48,647 nucleotides of DNA from a virus: positions 1 through 48,647 of IMG/VR virus record IMGVR_UViG_3300002132_000066, one strand, 5' to 3'. Within the stretch, counting starts at the first letter, position 1. Every line of letters starts with the position of its first letter. Both the position numbers and the translations under genes were made by a program. Shown here piece by piece: positions 9,498-45,219 of this stretch. Below the pieces are notes generated by a model, which was not told the DNA's origin, did not search any database, and worked only from the letters and a program-made list of their open reading frames with translations.

Positions 9498-9709
9498 TGG
9501 ATGTTGTCGACTTTGCAAAACACATGTATAAGTTGTTGCGTGAGCGGGAGAACGATATTGCTTTCGCTCTAGCCAACGATGCTGCCAAAGACTGGGAGCA
9601 TTACAAAATGATGGTGGGTGAGATACGGGGCCTCTCATACGCTAAAGAAGAAATGAAGGCCCTGCTGGAGAACAACGCAGACGATGTCGAAGACCTTATT
9701 TCTTCCTGA
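9497..9709 (+). CDS. Small helical protein of unknown function
   Basis: 70 residues, starting within the preceding TAA (TAATG). The sequence is predicted by eye to be all-helical, charged, with no cysteine and no membrane segment. Its 3' end overlaps the GroES-like gene by 26 bp in another frame. No motif was recognised. The pattern HYKMMVGEIRGLSYAKE near residues 35-51 looks like a conserved core seen in small phage proteins next to head genes, but I cannot attach a function. Confidence 0.68.
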   Translation: MDVVDFAKHMYKLLRERENDIAFALANDAAKDWEHYKMMVGEIRGLSYAKEEMKALLENNADDVEDLISS

Positions 9710-10172
9710 TCATGTCGCGCAAAAAGTAAATAAGCAACGAGCCGCCGCAAAGGGCGAATCGTCTCCTATTGAAAGCGCCTATATTGACGCAACGCAAAGG
9801 GTATTAGACCCTTCCCTTCTAGAAAAAACATTGCTTGAGCGTCTTCCGCAGCCTACGGGCTGGCGGATTTTGGTCATGCCATATCAAGGAAAAGCCCAAA
9901 CCCAAGGTGGCTTGTATATCCCAGACGAGATTCGTGACCGTGAAAAGGTGGCGACGACTGTCTGTTATGTTATGAAACTTGGACCACTAGCTTATGCGGA
10001 TGCGGACAAGTTTGGTCCAAATGCAGAACCGTGGTGCAAGGTAGGACAGTGGGTATGCATAGGCCGTTATTCCGGTTCTAGATTTAAAATTGAAGACGGT
10101 GAAGTTCGCATCATTAATGATGACGAAGTTATCGCAACGATTCTAGATCCAGATGATATCCACCAAGTTTAG
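9684..10172 (+). CDS. GroES-like co-chaperonin
   Basis: Expected to cap host GroEL and help fold the capsid protein, as gp31 does for T4. The cpn10 fold covers about residues 58-160: WRILVMPYQGKAQTQGG at the start, a mobile-loop-like GGLYIPDEIRDRE, then KVGQWVCIGRYSG and a C-terminal DDEVIATI, matching the GroES end ..DILAIV. Unlike bacterial GroES (about 97 residues), it has an N-terminal extension of about 55 residues and a longer loop around FGPNAEPW. It sits just before scaffold and capsid genes, which fits head assembly. The start (ATG at 9684) overlaps the previous gene by 26 bp. Confidence 0.88.
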   Translation: MSKTLFLPDHVAQKVNKQRAAAKGESSPIESAYIDATQRVLDPSLLEKTLLERLPQPTGWRILVMPYQGKAQTQGGLYIPDEIRDREKVATTVCYVMKLGPLAYADADKFGPNAEPWCKVGQWVCIGRYSGSRFKIEDGEVRIINDDEVIATILDPDDIHQV

Positions 10173-13686: not shown

Positions 13687-13965
13687 ATGGCAGGCCCGAT
13701 AACCGCATATACACTTGCTGTAGCCACTGGCGCATCTGCCATTGGCCCATCACGGGCACGGCTCCGTAGTCTTGGCCTTTATGCAACCACAGCATCTACC
13801 TTTACGATCACAAACGGTAATGGTGGCGCAACCCTTTTAACTGGCGCATTCCCCGCTGGCTACAATGAAGTATATATCCCAGATGACGGCATCATTGCTG
13901 AAAACGGGGTGTATGTTTCTGCCTTTACGGGCACTGGCGGTATCCTTACCATTATGCTCGCATAG
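13687..13965 (+). CDS. Small beta-rich structural protein
   Basis: 92 residues with an AAGGAG site. Gly/Thr/Ala-rich with strands such as RLRSLGLYATTASTFTITNG and NGVYVSAFTGTGGILTIML. Only three or so basic residues. It is 11 bp after the previous decoration-type gene and probably co-expressed; both may decorate the head. No motif allows a finer call. Confidence 0.68.
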   Translation: MAGPITAYTLAVATGASAIGPSRARLRSLGLYATTASTFTITNGNGGATLLTGAFPAGYNEVYIPDDGIIAENGVYVSAFTGTGGILTIMLA

Positions 13966-13973
13966 GGGAAACA

Positions 13974-14219
13974 ATGGCAAAGTCCCCTGCTTGGACGCGG
14001 AAAGAAGGTAAGAACCCTAAAGGCGGATTAAACGCCAAGGGCCGAGCTTCCGCAAAAAAGCAGGGGATGAACTTAAAACCACCACAACCAGAGGGTGGGC
14101 CGCGTAGGGATTCTTTTTGTGCCAGAATGAAGGGCATGAAGAAGAAACTTACAGGGAAGAAAACCGCTAACGATCCGAACAGCCGGATTAATAAAAGCCT
14201 CAAAGCATGGAATTGCTGA
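13974..14219 (+). CDS. Small basic protein, DUF6321-like
   Basis: 81 residues, strongly basic. The sequence has WTRKEGKNPKGGLNAKGR near the N-terminus, LKPPQPEGGPRRDSFCARM in the middle, and NDPNSRINKSLKAWNC at the end. From memory this matches a small domain of unknown function (DUF6321) common in marine phages and cyanophages. Conserved Cys and Trp near the C-terminus are visible. The role is unknown; location among head genes suggests a virion or DNA-binding protein. AGGGG precedes the ATG. Confidence 0.78.
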   Translation: MAKSPAWTRKEGKNPKGGLNAKGRASAKKQGMNLKPPQPEGGPRRDSFCARMKGMKKKLTGKKTANDPNSRINKSLKAWNC

Positions 14220-14220
14220 C

Positions 14221-14475
14221 ATGACAGACAACATGAGAGTTCTTTTGGTTGGAACTGCCCTTACGGTTACTATTGCAGTGTTGGGGTCGTGGGGTGGATG
14301 GGTGACCTCGACTCTTATGGTTGTAGACAAACGGACCGAGGTTATGTCTGGAAAGCTTGACGATACGCACACCATGCTGGCCCTTATTATAGAAAAAATG
14401 ACACCGCAGAAAGCATCCGCGCCATATGTGCAGGAACCTAGGATTCCAGAGATAAGGGCTTCCTTAAATGAATAG
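14221..14475 (+). CDS. Small single-pass membrane protein
   Basis: 84 residues. Residues 7-32 (VLLVGTALTVTIAVLGSWGG and onward) make one N-terminal membrane helix; the rest is polar, with a helix VDKRTEVMSGKLDDTHTMLA. It starts one base after the previous stop. A membrane protein within the head-tail operon is unusual; a holin-like, superinfection or virion membrane-contact role is possible. Its last 8 bp overlap the next small gene. Confidence 0.68.
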   Translation: MTDNMRVLLVGTALTVTIAVLGSWGGWVTSTLMVVDKRTEVMSGKLDDTHTMLALIIEKMTPQKASAPYVQEPRIPEIRASLNE

Positions 14476-14644
14476 ATCGTCTATGTCCAAACAGATCAGC
14501 AATCCTGGCTTGTATGCTAATATCCACGCTAAGAAAAAACGAATTGCCGCAGGGTCTAAAGAGAAGATGCGTAAGCCAGGCACTAAAGGTGCGCCGACAG
14601 CGGCTGCTTTTAGGAAGTCTGCTAAAACAGCAAAGAAGAAATAG
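14468..14644 (+). CDS. Very basic small protein, 58 residues
   Basis: ATG at 14468 overlaps the previous gene by 8 bp (ATGAATAG), with AAGGG about 8 nt upstream. A second in-frame ATG at 14483 lacks a ribosome site. The protein has MSKQISNPGLYANIHAKKKR and ends in repeated Ala/Lys. This type (NPGLYANIHAKRKRI) is familiar from marine and cyanobacterial phages next to connector genes, with unknown function; charge suggests DNA or virion contact. The stop abuts the ATG of the next gene (TAGATG). Confidence 0.78.
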   Translation: MNRSSMSKQISNPGLYANIHAKKKRIAAGSKEKMRKPGTKGAPTAAAFRKSAKTAKKK

Positions 14645-32600: not shown

Positions 32601-33992
32601 GAGATCCGTGGTATCGGTGCGCAGCGTTTGATGTCGTATACCGCTGTCGCCTATGTCATGCCAGGGGCGGCAACCAAAGCTTCTATGATGGCAACACAGA
32701 CCACCCAAGAGGAATTGGATGCGGCAAAACGATTGACTCCGCCGTACCTTAAAGGTCACGAGCTATCGGTTATTAAGAACGACCACCGTGGCAATATTGA
32801 ACTGGTTGACCAAAGTTACGTCAACCCATACGCCTTTGTTCGTGATCCAGCCATGGCTGCGATACAAACATACAACGAGAAGGGTAAGCTCGATGCCAGC
32901 GAGGTATCCAAACTTTCTTCCGCTGCATGGGCGGGGGTTAAAGCCGTACTGGAGCCATTTGCAGCAGAGTCTCTAGTTTTTGAGCGTGCTCGTGACGTTC
33001 TCCCAGACTCTTGGTTTGGCCGTGGCGGTAAAACGGCCACTGGTTCAGCCATCTATGGGGATTCAGAGGATCTAGGGGACCAGATCGCTAAAGGGTTTAC
33101 TCATATGATGGGCGGGTTTATTCCGGCATACGCCCGTCTTGGTGTTGAAGAGCGCGGCGGTAAGCTTGTGCCAGGTCGTTTGACCCGTGGTGTGCTTGGC
33201 ATTCCAGGAGGCATTGGGCAAGAGTATACTACTGAAGAAGAGGTTGCTCGGGTTGTAAGTGGGTTCACTCCTATTACTATCAATCTACGCAAAGATTTTA
33301 ACTTCCGCGCGAAGGCTTACACTCCTCTGCGTTCTGAGGCCAAAGGCCTAGCGCAGCGCGTGATCAAAGCAAATGACAGCACGCCAGAACAAATGTTTGA
33401 AGCGTGGGACGGCTACCTAGATAGTCTCTACCGTTTGCAAAGTGAACTGTATGCCGATGTCCAAGCTGCTCGCACCTTGGGCCTTAGCGATGCAGAGATT
33501 CGGCAAGAGGTTATCCAAAAGGGCAAAGTTGGTACAACCGAAGCCAACATGATTATGCGCGGGGAGTTTTCTCCTGGTATGACTACGAGCGAGCTTCGCA
33601 AGGAGATCAACCGTGAGATACTGATAGAGAAGCAACCCCGCCTAACAACGGATATCCCGTGGGAGTTCCTCAACCAGATGTCTATCTCCAGACGGGCCAT
33701 GAAACTTGCCCCTGCGGCTGTCGAGCAAAGAGATTTTGAACAAGGCCTTTCTGGAACAGAGCCAGGGCCAAACTTCCAACCGCCTCAAGTAGCGCCGCAA
33801 CCGCAGGTCCAAGCAGCTCCACAAAGCGTACCACAAGCCGCTCCTGAACAATCCGCGCCACAAGCTGCCCCGCAGCCTGCCATACCGACGACACGTCCGG
33901 CTAATGCACCTGTACCTTCGGCGCTAATGGGTGGAAATCCATTTGACCAGCTTCGTAATATGGAAATATTCCAGAGGCGGCAGGGTCAATAG
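29628..33992 (+). CDS. Large internal/ejection protein
   Basis: 1454 residues, the largest protein in the window. Start GTG with AAAGG about 10 nt upstream; the first ATG inside is at residue 8. Residues 1-35 hold an Ala/Gln/Leu helix (DSEGNEADAAKLVQLAQQAQ). Regions near 105-130 and 250-280 are Gly/hydrophobic. Residues 730-960 have a family-like stretch with IIPNPLSQIRNIYGNTLMLA and FERMYSDSDSFFKVMSVLGE, seen in giant podovirus ejection proteins. The C-terminus is Pro/Gln/Ala-rich (APQAAPQPAIPTTRP). It probably forms the trans-envelope channel. No lysozyme or RNA polymerase motif found. Confidence 0.8.
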   Translation: MATFQELMNAAQQADSEGNEADAAKLVQLAQQAQASEGLDETPTVTESTFTDVGRGIISAPISVAQGILELGTAGIDASFDTDYSRQVGDAFNQFKADYDLAPQSSAGKITEDVISLGLGFIPIAGWLGRASSVAKLGKAARVPKSGFMRSADTFGASNIGKTLLDSRAKLYGATALGTLGYETIVSRDGQATLSDSFDVMPDMFKTQADTGQTGSAEGVRRLSNKATRGLESAFGSLAFDIGLPAVGMAVKSIGSLPGVGDVASGIAKTGIKTFEFLNKNLDKVPGVVKAKDGWNKYFTYAGGANELLGEEIADTMAVTGTAKTKVLNYIKAWDSELNKVMKFQKLIGKGPKLVAKANEDLNKFFDGLDTALDSYANPKTGINPVKTAAERMKTLSFEYQDDMLKELEDQALGAIGPRKQKLADNITLLKQHQDEQRMYLRRRFERYENPETWLKQFTPESKDSSAAIEEIKNNLRSMGVPTPVLKAGRSEEWLDKEANKQFYSILGLSVSENVPPKLAAENALKDLQLTRKAMSMPGPKLDMATDMFIKREDMISQSPNLRKLMGEVTDPKARFAQTIGDQASTIASLKFYSNVANNDALTMSFDDGLKALDNGGRPSFIRLPQGDELFKQGAELGEIPISGGTYGIGGADVMMRDTTEEVKRLISAGYRPLGELDKSSMFKGSYGDLSGMYVSPEAKEAVSTAGRLAQNPFTEAAALAVQAKGLAQRMTIIPNPLSQIRNIYGNTLMLASNGLLGRDANFFDSFRMFASNVSNLDDAGTQRLTKMMGELGVVETSLMVKAIKDFQEIGKDLTVAGKVSKATEKVVDAIPLMKTFERMYSDSDSFFKVMSVLGERSRLANALGKAGFEVTDRGLKSTRGALPVGATLADLFMDQGLATRAGSRASEDLTFLDVMAGDVTKATMPIYQRVGKAIKAIDRIPVLGSFTSFASENIRNSANILSRGMKEMAFTVPQKFRVQLGEDAARALEREIRGIGAQRLMSYTAVAYVMPGAATKASMMATQTTQEELDAAKRLTPPYLKGHELSVIKNDHRGNIELVDQSYVNPYAFVRDPAMAAIQTYNEKGKLDASEVSKLSSAAWAGVKAVLEPFAAESLVFERARDVLPDSWFGRGGKTATGSAIYGDSEDLGDQIAKGFTHMMGGFIPAYARLGVEERGGKLVPGRLTRGVLGIPGGIGQEYTTEEEVARVVSGFTPITINLRKDFNFRAKAYTPLRSEAKGLAQRVIKANDSTPEQMFEAWDGYLDSLYRLQSELYADVQAARTLGLSDAEIRQEVIQKGKVGTTEANMIMRGEFSPGMTTSELRKEINREILIEKQPRLTTDIPWEFLNQMSISRRAMKLAPAAVEQRDFEQGLSGTEPGPNFQPPQVAPQPQVQAAPQSVPQAAPEQSAPQAAPQPAIPTTRPANAPVPSALMGGNPFDQLRNMEIFQRRQGQ

Positions 33993-34189
33993 ATACTGAC
34001 GGTAACCCCGTTGCCACCAAAGATGCGGACAAGCTCGTCCGCTTTTTCCTGCATGTCGTTTAGGCACTCGCCGTCGTCCTCAACCTCTGCAGCCGCGTTA
34101 AGCGCTGTAGCAACAAACTCCATGAGAGTGGATATCTGATCTTTATGCATGTCTTTAAGACCAAGACAATCAAACGGTTCTAATTTCAT
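33986..34189 (-). CDS. Small acidic protein downstream of DNA polymerase
   Basis: 67 residues, acidic, helical, ending in a short strand (GGNGVTVSIY). Start overlaps the polymerase stop (4 bp). Its last 7 bp overlap the end of the large ejection gene on the other strand, so this is where the two arms meet. No motif recognised. Last gene of the leftward operon. Confidence 0.7.
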   Translation of the reverse strand: MKLEPFDCLGLKDMHKDQISTLMEFVATALNAAAEVEDDGECLNDMQEKADELVRIFGGNGVTVSIY

Positions 34190-36081
34190 CCAACCTCTCC
34201 CCAGTTATCCCCGAGTTCCATATCAACTTTGCTTGGGACCTTGAGTGGTAGTCCTGTCTCCATGATTTCCTTGATCCGAAGCGCTTGTTCTTGGTCCCGT
34301 ATAGAGAAGCATAACTCATCATGGACGGTTAGCATAGGGACAAATCCCTCGGCATAACAATCTACCATCGCTTTTTTAGTTTGGTCGGCTGCCGAACCTT
34401 GGATCAGTTTGTTCAAAGCTTTGTATGTAAAGGCGCGGCGTAACCTGCCCATCCCACCGTACTCTTTGTTTGCTTCTTCAAAGGGCAGGGGTTTATTGTA
34501 CCCAAAGGTGGATGGTTCCCAAAGATGGAAGCGGCACTTACGCCCTAGGATTGTGCGGATCTGACCGTTGGCCCCGCCGCGCTGGCTTGCTAGTTCCGCC
34601 AACTGTTTAACAAACGGAACCTTCTCACGGTGCGCTTGCATTAGCTCCTTGGCTTCCTCGTTGCTGATGTCTAGCTGAGTGGCAAGCTTGCCTACGCCCA
34701 TGCCGTACATAATGCCGAGGTTCACGGCCTTCGCTTCTTTGCGCTTGATACCAGCCAAGTCGGCCACCATCTGGTGCAGGTCAACGTCCCCTGTGTTGTA
34801 CTCATCCACGATCTTGTCAACGATACTGTCGCGGTGAGGCATGGACGCAGCAAAGTGCACCAATAACCTCGGCTCTTGGCTCGAGTAGTCAAACGACCCC
34901 CACTTCTCGCCCTCCTCTGGCAGGAACAACCCACGGATAAGCTTCTTAATATCTGGATCTCGCGCTGGCATCTGCTGTAGGTTGGGGTTGCTCGACGAGA
35001 AGCGTCCTGTAACAGTGCCCCCGTCGTCTGAGCGTAGCTGGTGGAACTCGCAGTGAATGCGGCCCTTGTGTTGGTGGTTTAGAATAGTATCAATGAAAGT
35101 ACTGTTTGCCTTATCAAACTCACGCAGCTTGACCAGAGACTGACAGGCTTCGTGCGGGTGGGCGTTTAGATACTGCTTGGTAAACGATGGCGCACCAGCC
35201 TCTGTCTTGGGGTACGTTAAGTTTAACGCATCAAACATCTTGGCAACCGAAGCGCTGGCCCACGGATCAACGTCCACACCTGTCGTGCGTTTAAGGTGGG
35301 ACCTAAGCGCTTTTGTCTTCTTGTTAAGCATGATCTTAGCGCGGTCAGCCGCATCGATATCAACACGCACACCTTTAGTACGCATGTCCAGCATCAGAGG
35401 GATAAGAGATGTCTCAAGGTTAAAGATGCTCCAGAGTTCTTCCTTATCGATGTCGATCCTTAGACGCTCCCAAAGCTTGAGAGTCATCACGGCGTCCTGT
35501 TCAGCATACGCGCCCACATACTTAGGCGGCATTTTCCACATGTCTTTCTTTGGATCAAAACCCCACTCGTTGGCCGCAGCCCGCAGTAGCTTCTCGTCCT
35601 TACGCATGTCGATGTAATCACGGCCCAAGTTATTCAGGCTGTAGCTAAAGCGGTTCTCGTTTATTATAGGCGCGGCCACCATCGTATCGATAATTCGACC
35701 TTGGACCTCGACCCCTTCAGCCCGCAGCCAGCCCGCATCGTAGGTGGCGTTGTGCATAATCTTGTCAATGTGGGGCGTAGACATCTGTTTCTTCAGCCAC
35801 TTAAATGTCATCTTAGGATCTAGGTTATGGCCATTCTCGTGGCGGATCGGGAAGTACCCGTAGTAATCCCCCGCCGCTACAGCAATGCCAACAACAAACC
35901 CGTCATTTCTTGCCCAACCTGGGCCCTTGGTCATAAGGTTCGGGTCGCAAGTCTCAAGGTCAATAGCAATCTGTTTGTATCCGGTTAGATCTGGGTACTC
36001 GGATGGGATGTTCCAATCGATTTCCTTGTTGTTCATTTCGGCAGCGATGTACGCATCTTTATCAAACAGTAGTTTTTTCAT
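34186..36081 (-). CDS. polA: Family A DNA polymerase with 3'-5' exonuclease
   Basis: Replicative polymerase, 631 residues, without a 5' nuclease domain. Exonuclease motifs: AIDLETCD (Asp41, Glu43), MHNATYDAGWL (Asp115), YAEQDAV (Asp196), so proofreading looks intact. Polymerase motifs: A SFDYSSQEPR (Asp398), B RKEAKAVNLGIMYG (Lys451) and C TVHDELCF (Asp588, Glu589). The residue corresponding to E. coli Phe762 is Leu455. Phe gives strong dideoxynucleotide exclusion and Tyr speed; Leu is a third class common in marine phage polymerases. Two bp separate it from the upstream gene. Confidence 0.96.
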   Translation of the reverse strand: MKKLLFDKDAYIAAEMNNKEIDWNIPSEYPDLTGYKQIAIDLETCDPNLMTKGPGWARNDGFVVGIAVAAGDYYGYFPIRHENGHNLDPKMTFKWLKKQMSTPHIDKIMHNATYDAGWLRAEGVEVQGRIIDTMVAAPIINENRFSYSLNNLGRDYIDMRKDEKLLRAAANEWGFDPKKDMWKMPPKYVGAYAEQDAVMTLKLWERLRIDIDKEELWSIFNLETSLIPLMLDMRTKGVRVDIDAADRAKIMLNKKTKALRSHLKRTTGVDVDPWASASVAKMFDALNLTYPKTEAGAPSFTKQYLNAHPHEACQSLVKLREFDKANSTFIDTILNHQHKGRIHCEFHQLRSDDGGTVTGRFSSSNPNLQQMPARDPDIKKLIRGLFLPEEGEKWGSFDYSSQEPRLLVHFAASMPHRDSIVDKIVDEYNTGDVDLHQMVADLAGIKRKEAKAVNLGIMYGMGVGKLATQLDISNEEAKELMQAHREKVPFVKQLAELASQRGGANGQIRTILGRKCRFHLWEPSTFGYNKPLPFEEANKEYGGMGRLRRAFTYKALNKLIQGSAADQTKKAMVDCYAEGFVPMLTVHDELCFSIRDQEQALRIKEIMETGLPLKVPSKVDMELGDNWGEVG

Positions 36082-36083
36082 AC

Positions 36084-36365
36084 TTAGCCCTTTTTAAACG
36101 AACCACCAAGTCCCGTGTACCCAGCTTTATCAATCCATGAATCATCGTGGTCTATTGTCTCAAGCAGTCTGGCTGTCTTTAGCCAGTCGAGCATCAAGGC
36201 AACGTGCTTGCGTGTGATATATCCGTGCGTTCTGACAGCGTTTTGCGCAATAATATTCCAACCGTCTGCAATGCGGTCGAAGTTATCGGATGCATCACCG
36301 TAGTCCTTGGCCCTCGGTCCGTTGATCAGTTCTTTAGCTGTGTCGAGGATCTCGTCTCTTGTCAT
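36084..36365 (-). CDS. DUF6378-like small protein
   Basis: 93 residues. AKELINGPRAKDYGDASDNF, then RIADGWNII, and HVALMLDWLKTARLLETIDH with a C-terminal DKAGYTGLGGS. From memory this matches the DUF6378 pattern common in phages, whose helical fold resembles MazG-type nucleotide phosphohydrolases, but no catalytic E-E-D set is clear here. Placed right before the polymerase, so a nucleotide-pool role would make sense; unproven. Confidence 0.78.
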   Translation of the reverse strand: MTRDEILDTAKELINGPRAKDYGDASDNFDRIADGWNIIAQNAVRTHGYITRKHVALMLDWLKTARLLETIDHDDSWIDKAGYTGLGGSFKKG

Positions 36366-36523
36366 TGGGGGCTCTTTTTCTCGTTGGGTTCAACAATCTT
36401 CTCACACTCTACACACATATCCGCCGAAAACTTATTCCAGTATGTGGTCCATTCATATCCACATGTGCAGTTGTAAGTCATAACGTGATACCCCATCGCC
36501 TTTTCCACTTCGTCTTGTTTCAT
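36362..36523 (-). CDS. Zinc-ribbon-like small protein, 53 residues
   Basis: Read on the minus strand from ATG at 36523 to TGA at 36362. Its start overlaps the helicase stop and its stop overlaps the DUF6378-like start, both as ATGA, so it fills the space between two coupled genes. Cysteines sit in NCTCGYEW and MCVECEK, giving two C-x-C or CxxC pairs about 15 apart, like a zinc ribbon. Tyr/Trp-rich around the first pair. Function unknown. Confidence 0.75.
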   Translation of the reverse strand: MKQDEVEKAMGYHVMTYNCTCGYEWTTYWNKFSADMCVECEKIVEPNEKKSPQ

Positions 36524-38043
36524 ACGTCATACCTATATGTTCTGTTGGACTCTATTAAGAACAAGTTCTTTCGGGCTCTGGTAAGGCCTACATAAAAAGC
36601 CCTGTGCAGATCATCTTTGTCCCCATCTATTGAGAAACGTTTGGTCGAGGCAAGGAACACGGCGCAGTTGTCGTCTTCGCCTCCCTTCATCGCATGAAAC
36701 GTAGACACCTTTATCCGAGCGGGTGCAAGGATGTCCTCGCCCCTCGCTTCTAGCATTGCAATATAACGATCCTCTTCTGCACTTAGGTTTAAAGCGCGGG
36801 CAACATCTACTTCAAGGGGGGCTATCAGACCAAACCTCTGCGATAGAGTTTGGTAATCCAAAACATCCTCGGCGCTGACAGCGTCAAGAAGTTTCTTAGC
36901 CCCGTGCTTTACAGATGCCGCAGTGCCGCGCTTAGGCATGACATCGTACATCGCAATGGCATGTTCCTTAGAGATGGATTCCCCTGCTTGAAGCTGCCTC
37001 CAAGAAGAAATGGCACTGGCAGTTGAAGTGCTGACACTCTTTAAGTTCTTTAGATTGCACATGTACCCCATATCCATGATCTGCTTAAAGATTTCTTTGG
37101 CGTAGGAGTTCGTTAATGCCATCACGGTCCACGAACCTCGCTCCAAGGGCAAGGATTGAACGGACATGACCGAGCGGATATTCCCTTGCTGTTCCGTTGG
37201 CTTAAACTCTTTTTGCTGTCGATACGAAATCCTCTTTACAATTTGCTGAGACAACTTGTGGACGGATATTGGCATACGATACGATTGAGTGAGGACACGT
37301 TTGTTTGGCGAGGCGTTTAAGAATAGCTTCAGATCAACGCCCGTCCAACGGTGGACAGCCTGATCGTCGTCGCCCGCGTAGTAAGTAAAGGCAGAGTTAG
37401 CGGCCATCTTTGCAACCATGTCCCACTGCAATGGGGTGAGATCCTGGGCCTCGTCCACAATCAGCAAGTCTAACTCTGGTGTTTCAATCTCTTTCGTATA
37501 CATGTCAATCATGTCCGTGAAATCAACCTTCATCATGCCTTGTTTGTAAGCCCGCAAGTTCTCGTCAATCTTCTCCAGCATAAAGAAATGCAAATTGTAG
37601 TTGTTCGCTTCTTTAAAAGTTCTTCCCAAAGAGCTCTTGCTGTACCGCGCTTTGGTAATGATCTGAACATATAGTGCGCCATCACTGACGGCAGGCGGTA
37701 TCATAACACCGTCTTCTGGGTTGATAGCGGTAACCCCAGAGAAATCCATATTCAACTTATTAGAAAGAAAGTCCCAGTCTGATTTGGCCATAACGTCTTG
37801 CTTCTGCAAGCCCAGCCCTCTGAAAGCAATCGAGTGCAGCGTTCTGAAATAGGGCAGGTCTTTATAGGTCAATCCAAACTGATGACCCGCACGGTTGACA
37901 GCTTCCGCTACAGCCTTCTTTGTAAAGGAAACAAACGCGATTCTCTCAGGGCGGACACCTTTATCCAGCGCGTCCGACACTAATCCAATAAGAGTATATG
38001 TTTTCCCCGTACCAGGCGGGCCAAAGATAAGCTGGCTAGTCAT
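36520..38043 (-). CDS. SF1 helicase, UvrD/Rep-like
   Basis: ATP-dependent 3'-5' DNA helicase candidate, 507 residues. Motif I GPPGTGKT (residues 8-15), Ia FVSFTKKAVAEAV, II VDEAQD (196-201), III GDDDQAV (224-230), IV QSYR (253-256), V STFHAMKGGEDD and VI VGLTRARKNL near the C-terminus. Shorter than cellular UvrD (720), lacking much of the 1B/2B domains. The 8-bp overlap with the AlpA-like gene and the 4-bp overlap with the zinc-ribbon gene indicate strict co-translation. It could be the replicative helicase here. Confidence 0.93.
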   Translation of the reverse strand: MTSQLIFGPPGTGKTYTLIGLVSDALDKGVRPERIAFVSFTKKAVAEAVNRAGHQFGLTYKDLPYFRTLHSIAFRGLGLQKQDVMAKSDWDFLSNKLNMDFSGVTAINPEDGVMIPPAVSDGALYVQIITKARYSKSSLGRTFKEANNYNLHFFMLEKIDENLRAYKQGMMKVDFTDMIDMYTKEIETPELDLLIVDEAQDLTPLQWDMVAKMAANSAFTYYAGDDDQAVHRWTGVDLKLFLNASPNKRVLTQSYRMPISVHKLSQQIVKRISYRQQKEFKPTEQQGNIRSVMSVQSLPLERGSWTVMALTNSYAKEIFKQIMDMGYMCNLKNLKSVSTSTASAISSWRQLQAGESISKEHAIAMYDVMPKRGTAASVKHGAKKLLDAVSAEDVLDYQTLSQRFGLIAPLEVDVARALNLSAEEDRYIAMLEARGEDILAPARIKVSTFHAMKGGEDDNCAVFLASTKRFSIDGDKDDLHRAFYVGLTRARKNLFLIESNRTYRYDV

Positions 38044-38251
38044 TGGTTCTTGGCCGAGACTTCAACCACTCCTCGATGTCTTCCGAATACCACCGAGTGG
38101 CGCTGTTAATACCCGTCTCTTTATCGCCATTCAAAACGATTGGCTTTGGAAACACGCCTTCGTTTACCCACTTGTAGATGGTGGACTTTGCCACACCCAA
38201 GCCGGTGCTAATGTCGCTGATCTTCAGCAACGGTTTAGAAAGGAACGTCAT
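38036..38251 (-). CDS. AlpA/excisionase-like HTH protein
   Basis: 71 residues. LLKISDISTGLGVAKSTIYK, followed by WVNEGVFPKPI and RWYSEDIEEWLKSRP, is the typical MerR-like winged HTH of AlpA and excisionase proteins. It overlaps the primase gene by 17 bp upstream and the helicase by 8 bp downstream. In a phage without a visible integrase it is more likely a transcription regulator or replication-origin binder than an excisionase. Confidence 0.85.
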   Translation of the reverse strand: MTFLSKPLLKISDISTGLGVAKSTIYKWVNEGVFPKPIVLNGDKETGINSATRWYSEDIEEWLKSRPRTND

Positions 38252-39767
38252 AGTTATTCTCCTCTGAGTCTACAAAGACTGCCGTTTCTATAAAGTCTGG
38301 AACCCAAAAAACACGAAGCGTGGTTGGACTCCCGTCTGCCTTCTTAATATTATAGTGGCCTTCACAGGACGCACCATCGTTGAGCGCTTTGATCTGTTGC
38401 TGAACTTGACCTCGGTTATACACCGAGAACCCACGGCTCTTCAGGAAGTCCATAAGACCGCCAATGGTAAAGTTAGTACGCCCGTTGTTAGAGTAAGGCT
38501 TACCCATGGTCATCTCCTCTGGTGCCACAGCCCGCATCCGGCCACTGCAGTACAGTTTAAGAACCTCTTTAAACTGCCCAGCCAAAGTCAATTCTTCTGG
38601 AACGTCTAGCTTTGTAGACTGATCCATCAAACCACCAATCAAAACCTGCCACTTAGCGGGCTTGAGAAGAGGAGGCATCAAATGGATCTGATCCATGCAA
38701 GCGCGTTGGAATAACGATTGGTTCTGCAACTGCTCAGTTGAGAGCTCAATGCGTTTGCCAGCAACGTCCATGAAGTACAGGCGCGGCTCTGACAGCAGGA
38801 TCGTAAGGCCGCTAAGGGGTACGCTGTCAGGCTCTTCAGACCCTACACCGAAGGGTCGGGTCTTACAGATCGTCTTGTCGCAGAAGTCTTTTAGTGGACA
38901 GGTGTTGCAGGTGTAGAAGTATTCCTTCTTCTCCAACGAACCTTGGATCACCATGATCTCCGAGGCCCCAAGCGGCTGGGCACATAAGATACGATTGTAC
39001 TCCTCAAGATGTTTTTTCCAATCGTCTGGCCACTTGAGTTTGCAGTAAACCCCAACAGCAAACATTGTGATGTTCCTGTTCTCGGATATCTTTCCTTGGC
39101 TCGACATAATCTCAAGGCAGTACGGCCCATCGGTAAAGTGCTTGCGCTCTCCGCCGAACTTCAATGCGTTCAAATCGGAGGCAGAAACCCTCATCATATC
39201 TACGGCATCCAAGAACTCTTCCAGTTCCATCGCCTCATGCTTCGCATTAAAGCAATAGCGCACGGTCTCATCCGCGTTGAAGTAAGGCATATTGATAAAG
39301 TTCCCTACATCTCCGCGTTCGGTAAGGATTTTATCCTGCTTCGGAAATATCTCGCAGCCAGAGAACCCCAGTGCAATGGACATCTCTGTTAAATATTCTC
39401 TAATCAGTGCCGCTGGCTCCCACCCTTTAAGGAACAGGAATAGATGTGCGCCTCCCGACTTTGACCGGCAGTGCAGCAATGGCAGTTTCATCTTACGGAT
39501 CTTAGCGCCAAGCGCCTTGTGGTCTAGGTCATAGGTGTCAATATCCAACGCACCAAATTTGCACAGGTTGTCTTGGTTGATAGGGATCGCGCCGACCCCC
39601 TGCTTGCCCTCTATGTGTGCTTGGACCTTCTCTTCTGTAATCTGTTCTCGGACGATGAGGCTCTTCGCATCCACCTTTCCTGTCCGGCCTACTCTGCCGA
39701 CAGTTGTCTTTCCGTGGCCCGCGATTGATCCCTCAAACGCCGCCAATAATCTTTCGGCTAATGACAT
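38235..39767 (-). CDS. Primase of the archaeo-eukaryotic (AEP/TOTE-like) type
   Basis: Synthesises replication primers. 510 residues; AGGAG 6 nt before ATG. The AEP core is in the N-terminal third: metal site ALDIDTYD (Asp75, Asp77), CRSKSGGAHLFLFL (102-114) and EIFPKQDKI followed by GNFINMPYF (139-163). These three motifs are those of TOTE-type AEP primases. Further on is a four-cysteine cluster C287xxC290x5C296x4C301 (CNTCPLKDFC onward), possibly an Fe-S or zinc site, and a C-terminal domain of unknown fold. No DnaG-type TOPRIM or DnaB-type gene is seen. Confidence 0.88.
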   Translation of the reverse strand: MSLAERLLAAFEGSIAGHGKTTVGRVGRTGKVDAKSLIVREQITEEKVQAHIEGKQGVGAIPINQDNLCKFGALDIDTYDLDHKALGAKIRKMKLPLLHCRSKSGGAHLFLFLKGWEPAALIREYLTEMSIALGFSGCEIFPKQDKILTERGDVGNFINMPYFNADETVRYCFNAKHEAMELEEFLDAVDMMRVSASDLNALKFGGERKHFTDGPYCLEIMSSQGKISENRNITMFAVGVYCKLKWPDDWKKHLEEYNRILCAQPLGASEIMVIQGSLEKKEYFYTCNTCPLKDFCDKTICKTRPFGVGSEEPDSVPLSGLTILLSEPRLYFMDVAGKRIELSTEQLQNQSLFQRACMDQIHLMPPLLKPAKWQVLIGGLMDQSTKLDVPEELTLAGQFKEVLKLYCSGRMRAVAPEEMTMGKPYSNNGRTNFTIGGLMDFLKSRGFSVYNRGQVQQQIKALNDGASCEGHYNIKKADGSPTTLRVFWVPDFIETAVFVDSEENNYDVPF

Positions 39768-39787
39768 GGTTTGCTCCTAGTGAAAAC

Positions 39788-39821
39788 GTGGTGTGCTAAA
39801 GCCTGACCTAAAGCACACCAC
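39788..39821 (-). other. Intra-operon hairpin between SSB-like and primase genes
   Basis: GTGGTGTGCT (39788-39797) and AGCACACCAC (39812-39821) form a perfect 10-bp inverted repeat with a 14-base loop. On the minus strand it follows the SSB-like stop by 7 bp and precedes the primase ribosome site by about 10 bp; it is trailed only by GTTTTC. It may be an attenuator, an mRNA-processing site or partial terminator that sets the ratio of SSB to primase. Confidence 0.7.
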
Positions 39822-39828
39822 TAGCTGC

Positions 39829-40626
39829 TTAAAACGGGATGTCATCATCCTGTTGTGAAGACACGGGGGAGCTGTTCCCATGTTCCTCGGCAGCAGCCTT
39901 CACTTCACCCGCCGCGATAGATTTGCGGAAGGCCATGGCCTCTTGGAGCATGTCGCGGTTGTTTACCAGACTGACCTTCTCCACTTGGTAGTTGTTCCAC
40001 GAACCTTGGTCATTGCTTTCCTCGGTGGTGGTCAGCTTCCACATCGTTGCAAAGACAGCGGGTGTCACCATGACATTTGTTGATGGGTGCTTGACTTTCT
40101 GCATAGCGATCTGTGTCTTCCAGCGGCGCGATACTTTCAACTGCGTTGACTTCATGTCAATCACGGCGGGCTGCCAAGATCCATCTGCATCCACGACCAA
40201 ACAGAAATGCTGGTCGGACTTCACAAGTTCGTTACCGTTAGGCAGAACTTCCTTTGAGCCAACGCGCCGTGTCTGTGTCAGGCGTGGATCGTTCGGTGCG
40301 ATCTCACCCTTGAAGCCACCACCCATATCACGCGGCACGAACTCCAGATACTTGGTGGTTTGGAAACAAGGCACGACAGTCACGCCCTCTTCCCCTGCCC
40401 AGTGCTGTCCAGTCACCGTGTTGAACAGGTCACCTTGAGCCGCCCCCTCGATGAACTCAGACTTCTTCTTGTTCAACTGCGGTGACAAAGCTTGCAAGAC
40501 CCGAACAAACGGGATCTGCATCTCACTGCTGTCAAAGGCAGCGCCCTCACCAGCGGTTTCAAAGATATCGTCAAGTACATCTGTGCTTAACTCTGCATTC
40601 TTTTTTGTTGCTACTGCGGTAGTCAT
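39829..40626 (-). CDS. SSB-like protein with DDDIPF C-terminal tip
   Basis: 265 residues. The last residues, QQDDDIPF, equal the acidic, Phe-ended tip of bacterial SSB that recruits replication partners. The body has strands and aromatic residues (GQHWAGEEGVTVVPCFQTTK; MWKLTTTEESNDQGSWNNYQ) but is longer than bacterial SSB (178) and not obviously a single OB domain. It lies between the primase and a coiled-coil gene, so a single-strand-binding replication role is likely. GGAGG precedes ATG; ATG overlaps the previous stop. Confidence 0.8.
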   Translation of the reverse strand: MTTAVATKKNAELSTDVLDDIFETAGEGAAFDSSEMQIPFVRVLQALSPQLNKKKSEFIEGAAQGDLFNTVTGQHWAGEEGVTVVPCFQTTKYLEFVPRDMGGGFKGEIAPNDPRLTQTRRVGSKEVLPNGNELVKSDQHFCLVVDADGSWQPAVIDMKSTQLKVSRRWKTQIAMQKVKHPSTNVMVTPAVFATMWKLTTTEESNDQGSWNNYQVEKVSLVNNRDMLQEAMAFRKSIAAGEVKAAAEEHGNSSPVSSQQDDDIPF

Positions 40627-41186
40627 TATGCTTTCCTCCGGATTTCTGCTGCGTTTGCAATGAATGCTCCAAACATATCAAGGTCGATGGGTTTGCCATC
40701 TGTTACGCGTTCCTTAACGAACGCCTTTAATGTGCTTGGATGGATGTGGGTCTTGGTCGATGGGTGGAATCCTCTGTCTTCCAGCATCCCTACAACGTCG
40801 CCCGCTAGGTTGTCTTCGCCTTTACCAAAAGTCAAAGTCACGTCGTTCTTGATGATGTCATCAAGTCCTTGTGCTCGAAGCCATTGGAAAGCTTCTTCCT
40901 TCCTGTCCAAAGGAATTGAGGCGTGGACCATCATCTTTCTACTGACGGTGATACCGTCAACATCAAGGCGTTCAATGCCCATCTCATCCATCAGTGCAGG
41001 GATATTCTCAACAGAGAGTTTATGCTTCTCAGATTTAAGATGCTTGAGATGCTCTTCTGTAGTTTCAATCTCGCCCTCTACTTTACGCAGCATACGGACC
41101 AGGTCGCTTAGGTTTCGGCTAGTGTTGGTGTCGATGGGGGCGAGAGCTCCCGCCTCATCAAACATGTCTTCAAAGATATCAGTCAT
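40626..41186 (-). CDS. Coiled-coil protein upstream of SSB-like gene
   Basis: 186 residues. The start is placed at 41186 (GAGGA 9 nt upstream) rather than the longer frame to 41306, which would run through the divergent promoter and into the opposite gene. Residues about 25-60 form a coiled coil (VEGEIETTEEHLKHLKSEKH). The rest shows LDVDGITVSRKMMVHASIPL, EEAFQWLRAQGLDDIIKND and HIHPSTLKAFVKERV. I have seen this pattern beside SSB-like genes in marine and gut phages; no function is known to me. Confidence 0.78.
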   Translation of the reverse strand: MTDIFEDMFDEAGALAPIDTNTSRNLSDLVRMLRKVEGEIETTEEHLKHLKSEKHKLSVENIPALMDEMGIERLDVDGITVSRKMMVHASIPLDRKEEAFQWLRAQGLDDIIKNDVTLTFGKGEDNLAGDVVGMLEDRGFHPSTKTHIHPSTLKAFVKERVTDGKPIDLDMFGAFIANAAEIRRKA

Positions 41187-41261
41187 AAGTTTTGTCCTCT
41201 TCAGGGTTGGGGTTGACGAACAACTCGTTTGTCCGTAGGGTGACCTTAATGGAGGATATAG
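41187..41261. promoter_or_regulatory. Divergent control region with inverted repeat
   Basis: 75 bp between the leftward coiled-coil gene and the rightward SNF2-like gene. It has ACGAACAA (41216-41223), CTCG, TTTGTCCGT (41228-41236), an inverted repeat with one mismatch. TTGACG (41213-41218) could be a -35 for the rightward gene, with a poor -10 TAGGGT 17 bp on (41236-41241), so the repeat would sit between them as an operator. Rightward ribosome site GGAGGATATAG. Confidence 0.5.
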
Positions 41262-42731
41262 ATGACTGTCAAGTACAATTTTAAAACTAAACCATATAGC
41301 CATCAACAGATCGCAATGGACCTAGCTGGACAACGGGATGCCTTCGGGTTCTTCATGGAGATGGGAACAGGAAAGTCAAAAGTCCTGATCGACAACATCG
41401 GAACACTACACCAAAGCGGGGAGTTAAACTTCGCCTTGGTCATCGCACCTAAAGGCGTGTATCGTAACTGGGTTGCAAAAGAATTACCAGAGCATATGTC
41501 CGACGAAGTAAACTATCGGGTAATCCGTTGGGTATCAGGGGGCAACAAAAAACAACAAGAAGAAATGCGCTCAGTCCAGGACAAGTTTGATGGGCTAACC
41601 GTGTTCGTCATGAACGTAGAAGCTTTCTCCACACTCAAAGGACAGAAGGCCGGTGAGTGGATGGGCAAGAAGCTCGGCGGCAAAGGCATGATCGCCATTG
41701 ATGAAAGCACCACTATAAAGAATCACTCCGCCAAGAGGACCAAATCTCTCTTGAAGATATCTGTGTTGTTCAAGTTCCGCAGACTTCTGACAGGATCTCC
41801 CGTAACCAAATCACCGCTCGACATCTATGCTCAGGCCGCGTTCCTCGGACCTCGGCTCTTGGGGTTCGATTCGTTCTACGCGTTCCAAGGACGCTATGCC
41901 ATCATCAATAAGATGAGAATGGGGGCCAAGAGTTTTCAACAGGTGGTCGGGTATAGAAATCTTGAAGAGTTAACGTCAAAGATTGAGTCGTTCAGCTATC
42001 GTGTTCTCAAGAAAGATTGCCTGGATCTACCAGAGAAGACATACACCGCACGATACATTATGTTAACAGAGGAACAAGGTAGGTTTTACACGGACATCCA
42101 ACAAGTGGCGATGACAATGTTAAACAGCGGTGATCTTGTTACTGCTCCTGCGGTAATTACTCAGCTGCTGCGTCTCCAACAAGTTCTGTCGGGTCATCTT
42201 AAAACAGACGATGGGGATCTAATCACTTTCCCCACTAGACGTACCGAGGCGGTGGTTGAGATACTTGAGGAACATGAGGGCAAAGCTCTTATTTGGTCCA
42301 GGTTCCGTCACGACATCAAGACAATCACCTCTACGTTAAACAGTAAGTTTGGAGAAGGCTCTGCGGCTGCATACTTTGGTGACACTTCAGACGACGAGCG
42401 CAACAACATCGTTCGTAACTTCCAGAACCCAGACCACCCGCTCAAATATTTTATTGGGAACCCTGCGACTGCGGGGTATGGGTTGACTCTGACCGAGGCC
42501 AACCTCGTGGTATACTATGCCAACGACTTTAACTTGGAAACAAGGATTCAATCTGAAGACCGAGCCCATCGTATTGGGCAGCGCAACCCCGTCACTTACG
42601 TTGATCTAATTACCGAGGGATCTATTGACGAGAAGATCGTTAAGTCCCTTCGCGATAAGATCGACATCGGGGCCAAAGTTCTAGGCGAACAAGCCAGAGA
42701 ATGGCTAACTCTAACCCCCAACAAAGGATAA
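41262..42731 (+). CDS. SNF2-like SF2 helicase/translocase
   Basis: 489 residues; the only large + strand gene in the leftward arm. Q motif KPYSHQQIAM (10-19), motif I EMGTGKSK (33-40), II AIDEST (145-150), III LTGSPVTKSP (176-185), and C-terminal NPATAGYGLTLTEANLVVYY, then EDRAHRIGQRNPVTY, the signature of SNF2/DEAD-like remodellers. It could move along DNA, displace proteins or help origin opening. Divergent from the coiled-coil gene and followed 5 bp later by a small gene, it forms its own transcription unit. Confidence 0.92.
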   Translation: MTVKYNFKTKPYSHQQIAMDLAGQRDAFGFFMEMGTGKSKVLIDNIGTLHQSGELNFALVIAPKGVYRNWVAKELPEHMSDEVNYRVIRWVSGGNKKQQEEMRSVQDKFDGLTVFVMNVEAFSTLKGQKAGEWMGKKLGGKGMIAIDESTTIKNHSAKRTKSLLKISVLFKFRRLLTGSPVTKSPLDIYAQAAFLGPRLLGFDSFYAFQGRYAIINKMRMGAKSFQQVVGYRNLEELTSKIESFSYRVLKKDCLDLPEKTYTARYIMLTEEQGRFYTDIQQVAMTMLNSGDLVTAPAVITQLLRLQQVLSGHLKTDDGDLITFPTRRTEAVVEILEEHEGKALIWSRFRHDIKTITSTLNSKFGEGSAAAYFGDTSDDERNNIVRNFQNPDHPLKYFIGNPATAGYGLTLTEANLVVYYANDFNLETRIQSEDRAHRIGQRNPVTYVDLITEGSIDEKIVKSLRDKIDIGAKVLGEQAREWLTLTPNKG

Positions 42732-43141: not shown

Positions 43142-43609
43142 TTACTCTTCGTCGTCAAACCAATCGAAGTTGCTGCAATAATATTCTGTCTGGCCGTCCT
43201 TGCTCACAACGATGGCTGTCTCAGCCTCGCCATGTTCCGTCAAGTTTTTTAACGAGGCCGTAATAATAGCTTCGTTAAACCCTGTCTTGTCCATGATCTT
43301 CTGGACAGTCATAGGGTTGTTATCATCCAATAGATCTTTGATAATCTTGCGCGGGGCCGCAGTGGCAGGCTCGGTGCGAAGTTTGTCTGCGTCACACTCC
43401 ACGCGCATCGCTCTCCACGCAACTTGCTCCTGCTTGTCAGGGTAGTTTGGAATCACAAAGAAGTTTCTTGTGTCCCCGATCTGAAGCCCGACCGCATTTA
43501 CAATACGCGAGTTCACAAAGACCACCTCTCCTGTCGTTACCGATGTTGCAAATGCAGAGTTAGTGTATGTGATCTGGTCTACTACAGCTTCAATTACTTC
43601 CGTCGTCAT
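43142..43609 (-). CDS. Winged-helix regulator candidate
   Basis: 155 residues. The N-terminal half is beta-rich (ITYTNSAFATSVTTGEVVFV; RNFFVIPNYPDKQEQVAWRA) and may be a small barrel. Residues about 87-140 look like a winged helix: KIIKDLLDDNNPMTVQKIMD, then GFNEAIITASLKNLTEHGEA. Acidic C-terminus DWFDDEE. GGAG is 6 nt before ATG. It overlaps the next upstream gene by 20 bp. Likely DNA-binding. Confidence 0.72.
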   Translation of the reverse strand: MTTEVIEAVVDQITYTNSAFATSVTTGEVVFVNSRIVNAVGLQIGDTRNFFVIPNYPDKQEQVAWRAMRVECDADKLRTEPATAAPRKIIKDLLDDNNPMTVQKIMDKTGFNEAIITASLKNLTEHGEAETAIVVSKDGQTEYYCSNFDWFDDEE

Positions 43610-44250: not shown

Positions 44251-44516
44251 TAATTCATCCTCTGTTTTTTTAATTTATCGTCGAGAAAAAGGTGTGTCTT
44301 AATTAATAGTTTCACAACTTTGGATATCGGTAAACCATTAACCCTTGTAAAGAGAGCCAATGAAGTGGCTAAAAGGTGCGCCATGTCCGCATCGTCTTTG
44401 GCATACGAATCCGCAATCGTTAGTATGGTAGATACAACTTGGCCATCGTTCATAGGTTCTGGCAGATTGGCAATGCACCTAGAGATCAGCACTTGTATTC
44501 TCTCTTCGTCATCCAT
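44250..44516 (-). CDS. Small helical protein
   Basis: 88 residues. The start is placed at 44516, overlapping the methyltransferase-like stop by 8 bp, not at 44597, which lies inside that gene. Helical with GQVVSTILTIADSYAKDDAD and MAHLLATSLALFTRVNGLPI; basic C-terminus. No domain recognised. Confidence 0.7.
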   Translation of the reverse strand: MDDEERIQVLISRCIANLPEPMNDGQVVSTILTIADSYAKDDADMAHLLATSLALFTRVNGLPISKVVKLLIKTHLFLDDKLKKQRMN

Positions 44517-45219
44517 TGTTTGCCTCGTATACTGCGCGAGCAAAGCCGCGTGGGGTTGCTGATCTGATGTCCTTAGTGCGCTGGGACTTTCCCCCAAGCT
44601 TCATCATAGCCTTCGAATAACCGTTCCCGTAGTACGCTTCTGGATCCACGGCCCTCGGCTCTGGCATCTTAAAGCCATTGCCTGTCCACAAACAGGTCGC
44701 CTTCTTGTATGAGTCCTGCGAAGGAATATACTCTGGCCAGCGTGGGTGCTCGGCCTCGGCCTCTGGTATGTAGCCGCCGTATTCGTATGGGTGGAACTTA
44801 TAGTCAGGCTTGCGCCACTTCGTAGCTAAGACCGAAATCGGGTTCTCCACAAAGAAGGGGATATGTAGGCTGTTGAATAGCTTGGCGCACCACATAGCGT
44901 AACTCACAGCCTCATCTTGAAATGATGGGTTGGCCTGACGTTTCTTCTCGAACCACGCAGCGCCCGACACCGCCATGTCAGTGCAGACAGGGAAGGCCAT
45001 GCCGAATGCCACGCCGCCTCTGGATGTCGAGCCGTCTTGGATTGCGTTGAGTGTGTTGTGGTCGTGCAAATCAGCGTAGGCATAGTGTATCGAACCTCGG
45101 CCCACGGCTTCTTTTCGGTAAGTGTGTTGAATATCGTAGCACCAGCATTCATATCCTGCCTCGGCCCATGGCCGTACCGCCTCGCCTGTAAAATCATATA
45201 AGCTAATTACTGTTTTCAT
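44509..45219 (-). CDS. DNA cytosine methyltransferase-like protein
   Basis: 236 residues. SLYDFTGEAVRPWAEAGYEC (6-25) resembles the SAM-binding motif I of C5-methyltransferases, CYDIQH gives the next acidic residue (Asp29), FPVCTDMAVSG (76-86) places a cysteine (Cys79) at the PCQ catalytic position, and FFVENPIS (122-129) corresponds to ENV. It lacks a recognition domain of usual size. It may modify phage DNA against restriction or act on another substrate. AAGGA 8 nt before ATG. Confidence 0.75.
   Translation of the reverse strand: MKTVISLYDFTGEAVRPWAEAGYECWCYDIQHTYRKEAVGRGSIHYAYADLHDHNTLNAIQDGSTSRGGVAFGMAFPVCTDMAVSGAAWFEKKRQANPSFQDEAVSYAMWCAKLFNSLHIPFFVENPISVLATKWRKPDYKFHPYEYGGYIPEAEAEHPRWPEYIPSQDSYKKATCLWTGNGFKMPEPRAVDPEAYYGNGYSKAMMKLGGKSQRTKDIRSATPRGFARAVYEANNG

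Follow-up and report, generated by a model that had tools for sequence, protein, structure and literature searches.

A conserved phage replication module with an archaeo-eukaryotic primase, a UvrD-like motor and matching C-terminal tips on the primase and a presumed single-stranded DNA-binding protein

The IMG/VR virus record IMGVR_UViG_3300002132_000066, which is classed as linear, was analysed over its entire length of 48,647 bases (hereafter the window), with the focus on a block of replication genes at positions 34186 to 42731. The source is a virus of bacteria, that is, a phage. Its late operon, encoding the terminase, portal, head and other virion proteins, runs rightward and ends at position 33992. 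Beyond this point lies a leftward operon composed, in order, of the genes for a family A DNA polymerase (PolA), a DUF6378 protein, a UvrD-like helicase, an archaeo-eukaryotic primase (AEP), a gp34-like presumed single-stranded DNA-binding protein (SSB) and a gp33-like protein, and a SNF2-type gene is oriented opposite to this operon. An earlier reading made from the sequence alone had placed five replication genes here, and Pfam and PHROG matches confirmed all of them (E-values in brackets):

34186-36081, minus strand: family A DNA polymerase, 631 aa, with 3'-5' exonuclease (PF00476 DNA_pol_A, 3e-59; PF01612, 2.8e-13; phrog_17, 6e-121)
36520-38043, minus strand: UvrD/Rep-like superfamily 1A (SF1A) helicase, 507 aa (PF00580, 6e-25; phrog_1967, 2.2e-60)
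38235-39767, minus strand: AEP primase, 510 aa (PF22548 AEP-TOTE, 7.1e-14; phrog_21866 'primase', 6.4e-79)
39829-40626, minus strand: Pam3 gp34-like protein, presumed SSB, 265 aa (PF23977 Pam3_Gp34, 1.3e-63)
41262-42731, plus strand: SNF2-type superfamily 2 (SF2) ATPase, 489 aa (PF00176, 2.6e-19; PF00271, 1.5e-13; phrog_62, 1.8e-110)

The gp33-like gene between gp34 and SNF2, and the DUF6378 gene between UvrD and PolA, were not part of that reading.

The primase scored 52.4 bits against PF22548, for which the curated cut-off is 27. Its N-terminal Prim-Pol domain carries D75xD77, H108 and E139 (within EIFPKQ), so that the DxD, the sxH and the third acidic residue are all present, and D75, D77 and H108 are invariant in alignments of relatives. 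A Cys cluster lies at residues 287-301, the C-terminal region is winged-helix-like according to weak matches, and a linker (residues 495-507), predicted to be disordered in the model, leads to the C-terminal tip YDVPF. A profile of seven phage primases retrieved structure 7nqd, a CRISPR-associated Prim-Pol (CAPP), at 7e-15, and the AlphaFold2 model (predicted local distance difference test, pLDDT, 85) retrieved CAPP in Foldseek at 1.6e-10 with a TM-score of 0.70 on the target, followed by the cyanophage S-2L PrimPol (6e-4), RepB' (2e-3) and then weaker AEPs. As modelled, the AEP fold is confirmed, with a CAPP Prim-Pol as the closest solved structure, and this removes the doubt, raised with the first assignment, that the protein might have no such fold. 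The TOTE likeness proposed at the same time was borne out for the domain family, whereas the resemblance to a TOTE conflict system was not: the phage has separate genes within a replication operon, nothing resembling a conflict system was seen, and the primase matched none of the S1/CSD domain models for TOTE systems. The CAPPs (7nqd, 7p9j; PMC8211822) share the catalytic domain and are closest by both sequence and fold, whereas the C-terminal region of the phage enzyme differs in its Cys cluster, winged-helix-like part and tip; CRISPR genes were absent from the scanned open reading frames (ORFs) of the window and from the annotated neighbours in relatives. Since CAPPs begin primers with a ribonucleotide and prime DNA synthesis de novo (PMC8211822), primer synthesis by the phage AEP is, by analogy, a fair prediction.

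PolA of the window has no 5' nuclease domain and carries Leu at the position of E. coli residue 762, in the motif EAKAVNLGIMYG (AKAVNLGIMYG, read from the translation). Among 51 readable motifs of relatives, 49 have Leu and two have Phe. Together with the UvrD-like and SNF2-like genes near PolA, this residue gives the window the hallmarks of the viral Leu762 group II, in which, according to Nasko 2018 (PMC6302109), nearby UvrD-like helicases always occur with SNF2-like ones. The window module resembles that replisome in its Leu762 PolA and its two non-ring helicases, whereas the accessible parts of the account name neither an AEP primase nor an SSB for the group; those of Keown 2022 (PMC9069017) do not name an AEP primase either. 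To this set the window module adds the AEP primase, a gp34-family SSB candidate, a conserved order and shared tips. Judged by its sequence, the AEP is the primase of a replisome of the Leu762 group II type.

The five-gene set is a conserved module and not a one-off of this genome. It was found in the cultured or deposited phages DSL-LC04, ct3Et533, Pan1 of Pseudanabaena, R5C of Dinoroseobacter, R26L, HTVC023P, HTVC027P, 023Pt_psg01, PMBT28, PSA28, DMU1 and Kokobel2, and it is widespread, with hundreds of related phages and hosts that include SAR11, Rhodobacterales, cyanobacteria and Acinetobacter, among others. Family searches of 32 whole records, among them 12 genomes of isolated or deposited phages, of which 11 are called complete and one (PSA28) is partial, detected the UvrD-like gene in 32/32 and PolA, SNF2 and gp34 in 31/32 each; the records without one gene are contigs starting inside the primase or stopping just after UvrD. 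Where the contigs of IMG/VR loci were of sufficient length, gp34 was present in 67/67, UvrD-like in 66/66, PolA in 31/31 and SNF2 in 36/36, and in all 66 the UvrD-like gene adjoined the primase on the same strand. The replication-operon setting that the sequence-only reading had suggested for the AEP primase, two non-ring ATPases, SSB-like protein and PolA thus recurs across the relatives. Neither DnaB_C nor DNAG_N gave a match within the window record, in agreement with the absence of DnaG and DnaB-type genes noted earlier. Because the record is linear and probably incomplete, genes for DnaB and DnaG that might lie just beyond its ends were looked for in the relatives; each was found in 0/32 records, in searches that did not extend to SF3, RepA and MCM helicases. 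The same DnaB search does detect T7 gp4, and this gp4/DnaB family ring helicase of T7-type replisomes was likewise found in 0/32 records.

The motifs of the polymerase and of both motors are intact in translations and alignments. The UvrD-like protein has invariant Walker A, DEAQD-type, GDDDQA and TRA motifs, and among proteins of solved structure it is closest to UvrD, PcrA and Rep, which translocate 3'-5'. The SNF2-type protein retains MGTGKS, DEST and QSEDRAHRIGQ. The UvrD-like query matched 39 of 50,697 phage records, and its top 24 coincided with the 24 in which the AEP primase occurs, whereas the SNF2 query matched 1,047 records and the gp34 query 503. In the next-nearest UvrD set, Meiothermus phage MMP17 also has a UvrD/Rep gene near a Prim-Pol. 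The SNF2-type gene occurs in Pbunavirus phages with a PolIII-type polymerase too, and in 23 of 36 loci it is encoded on the other strand, beyond the limits of the operon. By these sequence searches, the UvrD-like protein is specific to the AEP phages and the SNF2-type protein is not, and the former is therefore the better fork-helicase candidate. It looks like the specific partner of the primase, with gp33, gp34 and SNF2 forming a more widely shared set, and the SNF2-type protein, widespread and from a translocase family, is probably an accessory translocase. Of the two fork helicases that had been proposed as alternatives, UvrD-like or SNF2-like, the first thus gained and the second lost. The herpesvirus UL5/UL52 pair also joins an SF1 helicase to an AEP primase in a virus of Duplodnaviria; however, UL5 belongs to SF1B and was not matched, whereas the phage motor is nearest to UvrD/PcrA/Rep of SF1A.

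The gp34-like protein was modelled with a pLDDT of 85, a beta-rich core and a disordered tail, which is acidic and ends in DDDIPF. Comparison with solved structures by profile and by fold gave nothing below 1e-3, the best matches to oligonucleotide/oligosaccharide-binding (OB) proteins being weak (E 0.06 or worse), and for this reason an OB fold is not claimed as proven. The SSB-like label given to this protein from the sequence draws on its tail and synteny, while its fold is without a confident solved match. In phage ct3Et533 (L002), the gp34 gene occupies 13704-14597 on the plus strand.

The primase itself bears the same kind of C-terminal tip as gp34, a feature that had gone unremarked in the sequence-only reading. 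In the window, the primase ends in SEENNYDVPF and gp34 in SSQQDDDIPF, and the tip codons are as follows:

38238-38252, minus strand: primase C-terminal tip codons, YDVPF (PF invariant in 40 aligned relatives)
39832-39849, minus strand: gp34 C-terminal tip codons, DDDIPF (from the sequence and tip counts)

Across the 40 primases that were aligned, the final two residues never vary, while conservation is poor in most of the twenty columns before them. In the first 93 loci, a Pro-Phe (PF) end was present in 79/90 primases and 74/85 gp34 proteins, versus 9/2,895 other ORFs, and in none of the UvrD, PolA, SNF2 and gp33 proteins; no third tip-bearing family was seen in the loci. Further scans added distant lineages, and dereplication at 80% identity left 126 genomes, in which the tips of the two proteins vary together. 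The within-genome pairs (primase and gp34) included PF/PF in 64 genomes, IV/IV in nine, IV/II in five, II/II in four, NY/NY in three, PY/PY in two and EF/EF in two; the matching tips include SNY/SNY. The class of the last residue agreed in 106/126 genomes (permutation mean 65, maximum 80), the last two residues agreed in 86/126 (mean 38.5, maximum 50), and the last three were identical in 38/126 (mean 8.3, maximum 18). Gene conversion was considered as the cause of the matching tips and rejected, because the tip DNA is as different within genomes (2.0 of 9 bases) as between them (1.8); the nine tip bases were identical in just one of the 38 genomes with identical three-residue tips. Tree-based tests of correlated evolution gave p = 0.0016 for an aliphatic end and p = 1.7e-5 for PF, values that may be inflated when events are few. 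Switches of both tips on the same branch numbered three, versus 1.2 expected (P = 0.11), which indicated that independent coordinated switches are few. Since this last test was not significant, the claim of co-variation rests on the agreement counts and the tree-likelihood test, both with their caveats.

Three Nanhaivirus loci (L003, L006 and L088) carry a second, stronger phrog_1967 UvrD-like gene distant from the primase, as well as genes with PolIII beta or gamma/tau subunit annotations; their primases have no tip, and their gp34 retains PF. When the Nanhaivirus (R5C) primase was used as the query, its sole match was itself. Contigs of SAR116, Rhodospirillaceae, Acetobacter and Komagataeibacter (L128-L141) encode long proteins, mostly of about 720-1,090 aa, that share the AEP part alone; some of them end in DIPF or DLPF, and they belong to a different AEP group. 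The 'primase' of Riverbug was not counted as a supporting case, as no AEP domain was found in it.

With moderate confidence, we propose that the block is a self-contained phage replisome that operates without a ring helicase and whose shared tips dock in one pocket. For its proteins we infer the following activities, helicase polarity and docking site. The UvrD-like SF1A motor would open the fork, moving 3'-5' on the leading-strand template like its relatives, possibly assisted by strand displacement by PolA. The gp34-like protein would coat the single strands, the AEP enzyme would prime the coated strand, and PolA would extend the primers, while the SNF2-type ATPase would have an accessory role, as a translocase that clears away or remodels either proteins or branched DNA. 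The tips of the primase and gp34 may compete for a single pocket, for which a phage replication protein is the likeliest site and which could thereby be handed over between primase and SSB-coated strand, in a way that recalls the gp2.5 and gp4 tails on gp5 of T7. The T7 replisome is similarly built of few proteins, with a family A polymerase and acidic aromatic tips on its SSB and primase protein (gp2.5 ends in DEDGDF and gp4 in SNDTDF), and the gp4 tails bind gp5 (PMC12593628). It differs in that its ring helicase is fused to a Toprim primase, whereas the phage here has a separate SF1 motor and AEP primase; the T7 SSB and gp34 also belong to different Pfam families. A single docking site is thus suggested by analogy, with PolA as a T7-like guess for its location and gp34 itself as the main alternative. 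Several points weigh against the proposal. UvrD-family monomers are poorly processive, the record is probably incomplete, and the three helicase families named above lay beyond the searches of relatives; gp34 is without a confident solved match, coordinated tip switches are few, and a minority of genomes have discordant tips (for example, IL/HF and EA/PF).

The fork could alternatively be opened by host DnaB, the UvrD-like and SNF2-type proteins then serving recombination, restart or the removal of bound proteins. Bacteria possess DnaB and UvrD-family enzymes usually act in repair, yet the invariable adjacency of the UvrD-like gene to the AEP primase and the similar neighbourhood in the Meiothermus phage argue against this possibility, no loader-like protein was seen among the window ORFs scanned, and the usual partner of DnaB is DnaG rather than an AEP. 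We therefore consider it unlikely. Less probable again is that the SNF2-type protein drives the fork, or that PolA displaces strands alone while SNF2 clears proteins, the latter having been proposed for SNF2-linked viral PolAs (Keown 2022, PMC9069017). The near-universal presence of SNF2 in the 32 records would fit, and the same study suggests that SNF2-linked viral PolAs may displace strands unaided, some from SNF2 contigs having done so in vitro. However, it describes SNF2 proteins as translocases without strand separation, and the wide distribution of the gene, its company with PolIII-type polymerases and its frequent position outside the operon do not point to a dedicated fork motor.

For the tips, docking on the DNA-binding surface of gp34 was weighed as another possibility, in which the gp34 tail would be an auto-inhibitory plug that the primase tip displaces to load onto coated DNA. 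This would explain why the primase tip tracks the gp34 tip, and tail-DNA competition is comparable in T7 gp2.5, whereas the gp34 tail is disordered in the model; we regard this arrangement as improbable. Very doubtful is the idea that the primase tip copies the host SSB tip and recruits host SSB-binding proteins: the DDIPF and YDVPF of the window do resemble the bacterial DDDIPF, which is bound by DnaG and others (PMC5872125), but many relatives use IV, II, PY, SNY or SNF in both genes simultaneously, a variation that a conserved host pocket does not predict.

Each gene of the block has been annotated somewhere, and the grouping of PolA, UvrD and SNF2 is published (Nasko 2018). As far as our literature search reached, the AEP as the primase with its conserved neighbourhood is new, an earlier mention of the pairing being possible, and so are the specificity of the helicase, the co-varying tips and the finding that DnaB and DnaG are consistently absent. 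Our confidence falls somewhat short of even for the broader generalisation, namely a widespread phage replisome that lacks a ring helicase, relies on a 3'-5' SF1A motor together with an AEP primase, and is organised by a co-evolving C-terminal motif of SSB and primase (PF, PY, IV, II or SNY) that would serve as a lineage-specific 'key' to one phage-encoded pocket. A tailed phage that encodes its own polymerase would be expected to supply a ring helicase as well, but these phages keep a primase and a polymerase with no DnaB-family helicase seen. Five or six purified proteins would suffice to test whether a fork can be driven by a UvrD-type motor, and the co-varying tips offer a simple genetic handle on primase-gp34 coupling. 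If true, the arrangement would represent convergence with archaea and eukaryotes, which combine an AEP primase with a 3'-5' motor.

The remaining features of the block are as follows:

36084-36365, minus strand: DUF6378 small protein (PF19905, 1.2e-24)
40626-41186, minus strand: Pam3 gp33-like protein, DUF7307 (PF23984, 2.1e-27)
41187-41261, no strand: divergent intergenic region of 75 bases between gp33 (minus) and SNF2 (plus), from the sequence

Of the first 93 loci, 53 contain the DUF6378 gene, which in relatives often lies in the UvrD-PolA interval; the PHROG label 'phosphofructokinase' on the families that match it is doubtful. The gp33-like gene likely starts at the ATG at 41186 and not at the TTG at 41306, and its product is about 185-195 aa long in most relatives. 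A promoter scan of the intergenic region gave no excess over shuffles, and a nucleotide search with 14 kb of the window against phage records gave no match. Between the converging late (plus) and early (minus) operons, a perfectly paired stem-loop at 34025-34042 with terminator-like tails on both strands is likely a bidirectional terminator, the number of terminator-like sites around it being not above chance. A small early protein at 43142-43609 has a weak helix-turn-helix match at about residues 83-132, its S1CSD match being at noise level (0.14). A DNA methyltransferase match (phrog_757, 2.4e-70) lies at 44509-45219 in the early arm, and a Cpn10 (GroES-like) domain (9.1e-09) is encoded at 9684-10172 amid the head genes.

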